Shown: positions 2,781 through 5,441 of the stretch, piece by piece | Layout of the letters: every line of letters begins with the position of its first letter | Position numbering within the stretch: the stretch's first letter is position 1 | Virus record (IMG/VR): IMGVR_UViG_3300036985_000578 | Span: 1 to 28,239 of that record | DNA from: a virus | Direction: 5' to 3' (one strand) | Length of the DNA: 28,239 nt | Program-made: the position numbers and the translations under genes | The notes under the pieces: model-generated | Database searches by the model: none | Told to the model about the DNA's origin: nothing | What the model saw: only the letters and a program-made list of their open reading frames with translations

Positions 2781-3193
2781 TTTAAAGTCATCGCTTCTTG
2801 TGCATACTTTAGACTAATTTCTGGAAAATTTTTAGGGTTTTCAATAATGCGCGTAGCCCATGCGCGATAGTTAGTTTTAGGCTTTAATTTTTTTGCCACA
2901 AATGTGGTTAATTCTTGAATATGCTTTTTGTTTTCTTCGTAATTAACTGGCGATGGCAATGCAAAGTAAACATCTTCACGCGGTTTGCATAAAGCAATAA
3001 TGTCAGCAGGCTGTGGCAGTTTGTTTGGCGTGTCGGTCCACACATCAAGTGCTTTTGATACAACGCTAAATTCAAAGCGTTCTAACTTATGCCACCATAT
3101 ACGCAACATCTCTTTTTCAGGTGCTTGTTTATTGTATATGGCAAATACTGCAACAATCATGTCTTTAAATGCTAATTTGTCTTTGTCTATCAT
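2777..3193 (-). CDS. Replicative helicase loader-like protein
   Basis: The 138-residue product starts with a helical domain (FKDMIVAVFAIY, MLRIWWHKLERFEF, VVSKALDVWTD, LPQPADIIALC). This matches the phage G39P / helicase loader-inhibitor pattern that delivers DnaB-type helicase to an origin. The C-terminal part, with basic KKLKPKTNYRAWATRII, would be the helicase-contacting or DNA-contacting region. The ATG at 3193 follows AAGGAAACTAT, one of the extended ribosome-site motifs seen across this genome. No helicase gene is seen in the window, so the host helicase may be recruited to the candidate origin at 5196-5439. The assignment is structural analogy. Confidence 0.65.
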   Translation of the reverse strand: MIDKDKLAFKDMIVAVFAIYNKQAPEKEMLRIWWHKLERFEFSVVSKALDVWTDTPNKLPQPADIIALCKPREDVYFALPSPVNYEENKKHIQELTTFVAKKLKPKTNYRAWATRIIENPKNFPEISLKYAQEAMTLK

Positions 3194-3202
3194 ATAGTTT
3201 CC

Positions 3203-3919
3203 TTAAAATGGGTTTATATCAACAACGGGCTGTTCGTCTTGCCATCTGCCTTGATTCAAATAGGTTGCAGGATTAGGAATATACTGACCATCATTTCTTT
3301 GCCATTGGTCTGATTCTTTTTGCCATGTAAGTGCAGGCATTACATCATCAATTCTTGCTTTAACCTTTACCCATGATTTATATGCCGCATCTTTACCCAC
3401 CTTCTTAGGATATGCTTGCCAAAACTCACCAAACCCATTATCAAGCGATTTATCGCGCATAGATGTTTTCTTATCTATGTTATCTAATCTAATCTTATCT
3501 GGTCTGATGATTGGTGATGGCGTCATGACGCAGTCATGATGTTCAGTATTGATTGCCGTATCATACCGTTGCTTAATGTCTTGAATGATTGACCGCATCT
3601 GTGGATTGCTTGTTGCTGAACTCATCAAACGCTTTGCAACTTTTAAACAAGTAATCTTACCATCGTTATTTTCAAACAAGCCAAGTGCAATAAAACGCTT
3701 CATCATTTCTTCAACTCTTTGCGGTGTTGAACTTGTGTTTCTTGCAATTACTCTAGCATCATGCTTTATTTCAAATGTAATGTTGTCTGATGATGTTTTA
3801 CCAACAATCAATTCAATGCAATACCAATAAAGCCCGTATCCTTCAAGTCCATAATCAAGCAGAACTTCTTGCAATTTTTCATCAAGATTGGCATTTGAAT
3901 CATGTCTAAACCATTCCAT
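3203..3919 (-). CDS. Replisome organiser / replication initiator-like protein
   Basis: The 238-residue protein opens with WFRHDSNANLDEKLQ and LDYGLEGYGLYWYCIELI. This is the DUF4373 / Lin1244-type winged-helix start seen in phage replication-initiation proteins. A linker rich in T, P and D (residues about 130-165) leads to a C-terminal domain with FWQAYPKKVGKDAAYKSW and YIPNPATYLNQGRW, the DnaT/DnaD-like partner region of many phage O-type proteins. It would bind the origin and pass the helicase loader (next gene) to DNA. It lies about 1.2 kb from the DnaA-box cluster. The ATG at 3919 follows AAAAGGAAAAGTC. Confidence 0.75.
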   Translation of the reverse strand: MEWFRHDSNANLDEKLQEVLLDYGLEGYGLYWYCIELIVGKTSSDNITFEIKHDARVIARNTSSTPQRVEEMMKRFIALGLFENNDGKITCLKVAKRLMSSATSNPQMRSIIQDIKQRYDTAINTEHHDCVMTPSPIIRPDKIRLDNIDKKTSMRDKSLDNGFGEFWQAYPKKVGKDAAYKSWVKVKARIDDVMPALTWQKESDQWQRNDGQYIPNPATYLNQGRWQDEQPVVDINPF

Positions 3920-3930
3920 GACTTTTCCTT

Positions 3931-5067
3931 TTAAAATAAATCGTAAGTTAAAATTAAATCATTCATTGTTTTTGTTTCACATTCTTTGTATTCAAAACTT
4001 GCAGTTTCTCTGTTCATGGATGTTTTACCTTTCATGACACCTTTGCTTTCACCAACTTTACCAAGTTTTCTTGTTAGTTTCCAAAAGGGTTCTCTGCCAA
4101 GACTTTTGATAAAACTCAATGCGCCTGTTGTTATAAGAACTCTAAAATCTTCTTTATAGTAAATTTCAGATATTTCATTTAACAATTTCTTACCTATGCC
4201 AATTCCTTGAAAGTCAGGCAACACAACCATTCTGTGTATTTTTTTAAAATTAGCAACTTTAGGATGTGGAAAATGATTTACAGCAACAAAAGCAATTGGA
4301 TATCCCAAATAATCTAACGAATAGCAATCGCTTCCAGACTGAATATCATGCGTCAAATAATGATAGTTTTGAAATATCTTCCATTCATCAATTTTTGCTG
4401 TTCGCAATTTAAACTCAATTGCTGGTCGTTGCCAAAGCAACCCCCTTGAAAATTTCTTTTCGTTTGTATCAAAAATCCAATCTGGTCTTAGCCATTCTTT
4501 TATATCTGAATGACATGACACAGCAATAAATTTGTAATTATTTTTTCTGATGAAATCACTAACTGCTAATGATGTAATTTTTGCAACATCACGGTCAACA
4601 ACGCTTGTAAATTCATCAAAGATAACAGTTTGCTTGTTCTCTAACAAAAGTCGCGCTAAGTCAACCCGCATTTTTTGACCATTGGATAATAGATGATATG
4701 GCTTCAGCCAATTTAATGGGCTTGAAAAACCAACTTTGGTTAATGATTCAATTATTTTGTCAGATGACAAATCATCATTAAAATTGTCAACGATTGATTT
4801 TTTATCGTTCCAATAATGTTCTTTAAATAAATAAAAATCTTTAAACTTATCTTTAGCAATTGTTGTTTTTCCTGTCCCACTTTGACCAACAATTAAGCCT
4901 ATGTTCCAGTCAAAATCAACATCAAAATTTGCTATAAATTCGTCTTTTATTTCATTAAAGTTTATGTCATACATTTTGCATATGTAATCGTTTCTTTCTG
5001 TTTTTTCAAATGCAGTTGACTTTTTTATTACTGTGTTTTCTTCCTGACTTTCAAATAAATTTGACAT
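3931..5067 (-). CDS. ABC-type ATPase fused to GNAT acetyltransferase
   Basis: From ATG 5067 the product has 378 residues. Residues about 45-200 form an ABC ATPase: Walker A GQSGTGKTT (61-69), signature-like LSNGQ (127-131), Walker B TVIFDEF (147-153) and an H-loop His near 186. No membrane segment is seen, so it is not a transporter. Residues about 210-378 form a GNAT domain with NYHYL (234-238) and the acetyl-CoA loop FQGIGIG (286-292). The architecture resembles COG2401; the YHYL-type GNAT is reminiscent of Mu Mom-like base modifiers, but function is unknown. An upstream ATG at 5082 is in frame, but GGGAAACT before 5067 matches the genome's ribosome-site motif. It directly follows the structured RNA. 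Confidence 0.85.
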   Translation of the reverse strand: MSNLFESQEENTVIKKSTAFEKTERNDYICKMYDINFNEIKDEFIANFDVDFDWNIGLIVGQSGTGKTTIAKDKFKDFYLFKEHYWNDKKSIVDNFNDDLSSDKIIESLTKVGFSSPLNWLKPYHLLSNGQKMRVDLARLLLENKQTVIFDEFTSVVDRDVAKITSLAVSDFIRKNNYKFIAVSCHSDIKEWLRPDWIFDTNEKKFSRGLLWQRPAIEFKLRTAKIDEWKIFQNYHYLTHDIQSGSDCYSLDYLGYPIAFVAVNHFPHPKVANFKKIHRMVVLPDFQGIGIGKKLLNEISEIYYKEDFRVLITTGALSFIKSLGREPFWKLTRKLGKVGESKGVMKGKTSMNRETASFEYKECETKTMNDLILTYDLF

Positions 5068-5082
5068 ATATAAGTTTCCCAT

Positions 5083-5195
5083 AAAAAAAGGGCTTCAACT
5101 ACTAACTCCACTTTTTTAAGGTGGTTGGTGGAACGGTCTTAGCAACCGCCAGTTAGTATGTGAAGCCCTGCTAAATTAATCGCCACCACGCGATT
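5083..5195 (-). ncRNA. Highly structured leader or small RNA ending in a U7 terminator
   Basis: On the minus strand a predicted transcript starting near 5194 would begin with hairpin ATCGC/GCGAT (5194-5190 with 5183-5179). A nested structure follows. The outer stem is 9 bp (5161-5169 with 5089-5097) and the second stem is 8 bp (5151-5158 with 5100-5107). They enclose a CGGT/ACCG hairpin with a 7-base loop (5134-5148) and a CCAC/GTGG hairpin (5108-5124). Seven U follow directly (5089-5083). GGTTG at 5123-5127 can instead pair with CAACC at 5143-5147, so two folds are possible. It may be a stand-alone RNA like lambda OOP, or an attenuator for the ATPase-GNAT gene. It matches no RNA family I know. 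Confidence 0.6.
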
Positions 5196-5200
5196 TGTGA

Positions 5201-5229
5201 ATAATAATTTATTAAAAATAACTTTGCAA
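5201..5229 (-). promoter_or_regulatory. Leftward sigma70 promoter inside the origin region
   Basis: The minus strand has TTGCAA (5229-5224), exactly 17 bases, then TATTAT (5206-5201). The hexamers are identical to those of the rightward promoter at 6039-6067. The start would be near 5194, just upstream of the structured RNA. The -10 box overlaps a perfect DnaA box (5196-5204), so DnaA binding could block it. Confidence 0.7.
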
Positions 5230-5323: not shown

Positions 5324-5441
5324 AATCATCGTTTATATGGCAGTATTAGCGGCTTGTGAATAACCTGTGCATAAAACTGCTTAAATCTGTGCATAGATTG
5401 TGCATAACTTTTTGTCGTAAACCCACAAACTGTGTATAACT

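Follow-up and report, generated by a model that had tools for sequence, protein, structure and literature searches.

The DNA analysed here (the window) is a viral contig of 28.2 kb that carries a promoter-led structured RNA, spanning about 5195 to 5083 on the minus strand. Immediately downstream on the same strand lie a gene for an ABC-ATPase/GNAT fusion and a replication initiator-like gene. The ATPase-GNAT gene has a second in-frame ATG at 5082, on the minus strand of the window. The features are listed below, with positions in the window; A2 is the alignment of relatives used throughout.

5224 to 5229, minus strand: -35 hexamer TTGCAA of the RNA promoter (sequence; positional conservation in relatives)
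5201 to 5206, minus strand: -10 hexamer TATTAT after a 17-bp spacer; predicted start at about 5195-5194, the foot of H0
5084 to 5196, minus strand: whole RNA element, as aligned in A2
5179 to 5194, minus strand: 5' hairpin H0, stem 5194-5191/5182-5179, 8-nt loop CGTGGTGG (folding, covariation)
5183 to 5188, minus strand: PK1 5' strand TGGTGG, inside the H0 loop, partner 5131-5126 (covariation)
5169 to 5174, minus strand: PK2 5' strand TTAGCA, abutting P1, partner the P3 loop at 5144-5139 (covariation, loop swaps)
5161 to 5168, minus strand: P1 5' strand, basal stem of the terminator, partner 5097-5090 (covariation)
5151 to 5158, minus strand: P2 5' strand, partner 5107-5100 (covariation)
5133 to 5149, minus strand: hairpin P3, arms 5149-5145/5137-5133 (covariation)
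5139 to 5144, minus strand: PK2 3' strand TGCTAA, the P3 loop (covariation, loop swaps)
5126 to 5131, minus strand: PK1 3' strand CCACCA, the P3-P4 linker (covariation)
5108 to 5124, minus strand: hairpin P4, arms 5124-5121/5111-5108, with a loop that varies among relatives (covariation)
5100 to 5107, minus strand: P2 3' strand (covariation)
5090 to 5097, minus strand: P1 3' strand (covariation)
5083 to 5089, minus strand: U7 tract, an intrinsic terminator together with P1 (sequence)
3931 to 5067, minus strand: ABC-ATPase/GNAT fusion (phrog_11143), first downstream gene, SD-like GGGAA at 5079-5075
3203 to 3919, minus strand: replication initiator-like gene (Lin1244_N), second here and usually first in relatives

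The first-pass annotation had described a TTGCAA-17-TATTAT promoter followed by an RNA with a 5' hairpin, nested stems of 9 and 8 bp, two inner hairpins and a U7 tail, and all of these parts are present on the minus strand. The 90-nt core folded at -34.7 kcal/mol (z -4.8), and 0 of 200 shuffled sequences were equally stable. The promoter match was 9/12 and a scan found 2 sites against 2.0 per shuffled region; judged by itself, this match is no better than chance. It is credible because most homologues have a -35/-10 pair at an equal distance from the RNA. A terminator scan did not report the terminator of the RNA, because its branched apex is larger than the loop allowed.

Pattern scans of viral loci, from which only matches with the full anatomy were kept and one false match (L350) was removed, yielded at least 215 distinct elements in at least 308 loci. 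A covariance model of the RNA element (R1, with rough E-values) recovered the window element at 5085-5196 (94 bits, E roughly 8e-24) as well as elements in the viral loci searched, with two copies each in L485 and L517. R1 also matched the complete phage record MW202462 and a Burkholderiales genome contig of 37 kb (G067), neither of which had been fetched by the pattern scans. The G067 element was the single one obtained from R1 searches of order-wide and class-wide genome samples, and host assignment is based on this one contig. An R1 search of 398 genomes from another group found no element, a pattern scan of genome contigs gave no true element among the matches listed, and the plasmids searched gave no match. 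Across a phage collection of 50,697 records, searched at blastn sensitivity, the element occurred only in the metagenome-derived MW202462 and MW202544; matches in phages of Klebsiella, Vibrio and Bacillus were dismissed as short and due to chance.

The RNA had been said to match no known family, and this held: with Rfam 15 there was no match at the gathering threshold anywhere in the window, the best match of a relaxed search of the window had an E of 0.25 and lay on the opposite strand, and no family matched the element in 10 diverse loci. No description of the element was found in the literature with the terms tried. The RNA family is large and previously undescribed, and it comes mostly from uncultured phages.

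Alignment A2 comprises 70 diverse members, in which 39 pairs were counted across H0, PK1, PK2, P1-P2, P3 and P4. The family was gathered partly with sequence patterns, and the key pairings were never forced to covary. Over the 39 pairs, 98.6% of cells can form, and two-sided changes were found in 33/39 (n=70). Two-sided change cells numbered 559 against 130 in shuffles, and the covariation score was 0.618 against 0.19 in shuffled and 0.07-0.11 in slid alignments; the shuffles ignore relatedness. Every stem was supported by covariation over these homologues, including both outer stems.

Comparison also revealed two conserved pseudoknots that the first reading had missed. In PK1 (5188-5183/5131-5126 in the window), the H0 loop CUUGGYGG pairs with the P3-P4 linker CCRCCAA; 98.4% of its cells are paired in A2, and 4/7 pairs are altered on both sides. 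PK1 covaries as a whole, with six or more forms, among them UUGGCGG/CCGCCAA, UUGGUGG/CCACCAA, UUGGCAG/CUGCCAA, UUGGAGG/CCUCCAA, UUGACGG/CCGUCAA and UUGGUCG/CGACCAA. Several of these forms were recovered by scans that left PK1 unconstrained, and the last was also present in G067, which was found by the model search of genomes. In PK2 (5174-5169/5144-5139), which also covaries, the strand preceding P1 pairs with the P3 loop. There are 51 distinct P3 loops. The P3 loop pairs with the upstream strand of the same member over 5 bp or more in 97% of members, and in 21% after P3 loops were swapped between members. The alternative pairing proposed initially, 5123-5127 with 5143-5147, is not conserved and is impossible in most members of A2.

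PK2 and P1 both covary and they abut, with a spacer of 0 nt in nearly all members of A2. P1 was the stronger in 70/70 members (median duplex -13.4 against -4.1 kcal/mol for PK2), as would be expected of a transient antiterminator that must be stabilised.

Three further details of the structure were noted. A single mismatch position separates P1 from P2, and on inspection of A2 columns 42-43/107-108 its bases vary (A.G, U.U, A.C, C.C). Upstream of the elements of L059:3337 and L062 the promoter is more distant and an extra small hairpin, CGAATGAAAGTTCG, lies ahead of H0. A P4 resembling lambda boxB was considered and dropped: its CUUAAAAA loop had been imposed by the first pattern, and in freer scans the P4 loop was variable and often GNRA.

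The layout of the transcription unit was constant across relatives. For the best sigma70-like pair, a -10 box placed 14-24 nt ahead of the H0 loop was seen in 88% of members; among shuffled upstream sequences the share was 27%. This fixed position predicts a transcription start at about the foot of H0. The U-tract was 5-9 nt long in all members but one. A same-strand ORF started within 20 nt of the U-tract in 205/205 judged elements (median 11 nt), against about 26% of random positions by the same loose rule; 10 elements were left unjudged, their ORF being short or truncated where the contig stops. About 11 nt is too little for another promoter to fit, so expression of the first gene would have to pass through the terminator. 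The element is thereby placed, as attenuators and riboswitches are, as a cis-acting 5' leader with an intrinsic terminator ahead of the first gene. A same-strand gene also ended within 500 nt upstream of the element in 166/198 relatives (median gap 19 nt), so the operon could additionally be transcribed from further upstream.

A conserved promoter starting at H0 and a strong terminator delimit an RNA of about 110 nt, as expected of a small RNA that acts in trans, whether like OOP or as a decoy for a protein, and whose adjacency to the operon would be incidental. Against this, expression of the operon requires passing a terminator that always lies within 20 nt of a same-strand gene. Furthermore, there is no conserved unpaired seed, the conserved positions being mostly in helices, and the two copies in L485 differ in sequence and stand at two operon heads. 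We consider a trans-acting role improbable. The likeness to lambda OOP drawn in the first-pass annotation extends to a short terminated RNA next to replication genes, but the evidence does not support an antisense RNA of the OOP type. OOP RNA is antisense to cII, whereas the element lies on the operon's own strand, about 11 nt ahead of the first gene, and no opposite-strand ORF of at least 60 aa was found at 5083-5196 in the window.

The RNA had further been placed inside the origin. This stood locally, since the 600 nt preceding it in the window contain 6 DnaA-box-like sites, but not for most relatives, which were near background (mean 0.71 sites against 0.55 expected; 198 relatives). The cluster, TGTGNATAA at 5355-5439, is common only to the window and close relatives such as L401, L422 and L349. 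An origin-linked RNA, that is a replication primer or copy-number RNA, would suit the cluster directly upstream in the window; given its confinement to so few relatives, we regard such a function as very unlikely indeed.

Comparison of the loci showed that the genes headed by the element are diverse. The first genes form 28 clusters, of which initiators are the commonest (107/201 in one linked cluster); other first genes, with examples identified by Pfam, encode HNH and GIY-YIG nucleases, ParB-like proteins, a methylase, a helicase and the ATPase-GNAT protein. The proposal that the RNA controls the ATPase-GNAT gene was thus too narrow, and close homologues of that gene lack the RNA. Relatives of the ATPase-GNAT protein were found in 36 viral loci, and the RNA lay directly upstream only in L001 and L002 (93% identity), where both strands of several stems had changed together. 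In L003-L005 (86% identity) and the other relatives shown, the sequence upstream of the gene was different, and searches of the whole records of eleven relatives without the upstream RNA, some of them fragments, found none. The gene appears mobile, occurring in some loci together with the RNA and in others lacking it. Genes for HNH and GIY-YIG nucleases are repeatedly found inserted precisely at the junction of the RNA and the replication initiator.

A near-universal partner gene was sought in 64 longer element-bearing contigs, and none was found besides the initiator superfamily, which occurred in 55/64 at a median of 16 nt downstream. The longer contigs often also have, roughly 1.2 kb away on the other side of the element, a divergent recombination module. 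The prevalence of the initiator, usually immediately downstream, would fit autogenous control, in which the initiator or another early phage protein binds the leader and traps the terminator or the pseudoknot fold. However, a constant RNA core goes with very diverse initiators (Lin1244, DUF1376 and others), and other genes often intervene between the RNA and the initiator. Autogenous control accordingly has, in our judgement, a low probability.

We propose, with a probability of roughly 0.6, that the element is a cis-acting promoter-proximal attenuator that heads the replication operon and adopts either a pseudoknotted fold that permits read-through or a terminator. Transcription would begin at the foot of H0, which would fold first and be followed by P3. 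PK1 would then form between the H0 loop and the P3-P4 linker, and PK2 between the P3 loop and the strand ahead of P1. If this pseudoknot fold persisted, it would keep the P1 5' strand from its partner, the basal stem beside the U-tract would stay open, and polymerase would read into the gene starting about 11 nt later. If PK2 yielded, P1 would close on P2 and transcription would stop at the U-tract, so that only the RNA of about 110 nt would be made. PK2 would thus serve as antiterminator, with PK1 as its support, and P1 as terminator. PK2 and P1 should be mutually exclusive, judging from A-form geometry. In a closed 19-bp P1-P2 helix the start of P1 would lie about 50 A from the junction that bears P3, and PK2 would need about 15 A; with no spacer, both could not hold at once. 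The direction of the switch, with the PK2 fold permitting read-through, is what we infer from this arrangement. The initial suggestion of a possible switch, and that of a discrete RNA running from promoter to terminator, have both gained support from the comparative evidence.

Since PK2 is weaker than P1, the pseudoknot fold would have to form first and be stabilised. Polymerase or a Nus factor, a phage protein such as the initiator, and a small molecule are candidate stabilisers or signals. A precedent is the fluoride riboswitch, in which an early-forming pseudoknot and the base of an intrinsic terminator are in competition (PMC11077080). That riboswitch and similar ones resemble the element in this respect; the fluoride riboswitch differs from it in sequence and in the order of helices. 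In such riboswitches the pseudoknot and terminator share bases, whereas in the element exclusion would follow from geometry.

In lambda, both nutR/tR1 and PR'-6S RNA-tR', which is under Q control, combine a promoter, a short leader, a terminator and a long operon. The place on the map is comparable too, lying between an early regulator and replication gene O. The lambda elements use the Q or N proteins and simple sites, whereas ours is a pseudoknotted RNA.

The main rival of the attenuator is a processive antiterminator like the put RNAs of phage HK022, which antiterminate through the zinc-binding domain of polymerase beta' without a phage protein. Here the nascent pseudoknotted RNA would bind polymerase and override its own and later terminators. 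putL and putR are cis-acting nascent RNAs beside early promoters that let polymerase pass terminators, and they can be present at both divergent operons (PMC9378689). The element is likewise predicted to lie right after an early promoter, from the promoter-like pair fixed in 88% of members, and it sometimes occurs once per divergent operon: in L485 the copies at 2849-2958 (minus) and 3622-3727 (plus) each head one of two divergent operons. In MW202462 it heads leftward same-strand genes that begin with replication and continue into terminase, capsid, tail and lysis genes, so that the operon includes late genes, and such a reach would suit a processive antiterminator, as would the lack of a near-universal partner gene other than the initiator. 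Against this reading, an R1 search of HK022 up to E 10 found nothing, nor did a search of the lambda control region. Moreover, put is about 70 nt long with two stem-loops and has neither the conserved pseudoknots nor the terminal U-tract of the element, of which there is usually one copy per phage. We think a put-like mechanism unlikely, if less so than the other alternatives.

The attenuator may, more tentatively, represent a new class of phage RNA in a widespread group of uncultured phages, a self-sufficient double-pseudoknot switch next to the promoter that would decide transcription of a replication-plus-late operon. It might then sense the state of the host polymerase or a host metabolite with no phage protein. 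To our knowledge, very few systems, namely put and a handful of riboswitches, are known to control phage operons by RNA alone. The family is large, its covariation is unusually clear and extends to two pseudoknots, and it stands where the lytic programme is decided. The element offers a compact in vitro system for what a phage senses prior to commitment to replication, and R1 can be used to annotate such operon heads.

Two observations concern individual records. The two copies in L485, and likewise those in L517, differ in their PK1 and PK2 sequences, and an HNH-type gene follows each copy. At 33654-33896 of MW202462.1 an annotated hypothetical protein, UOF77143.1, overlaps the whole element on the opposite strand; this annotation is probably spurious.
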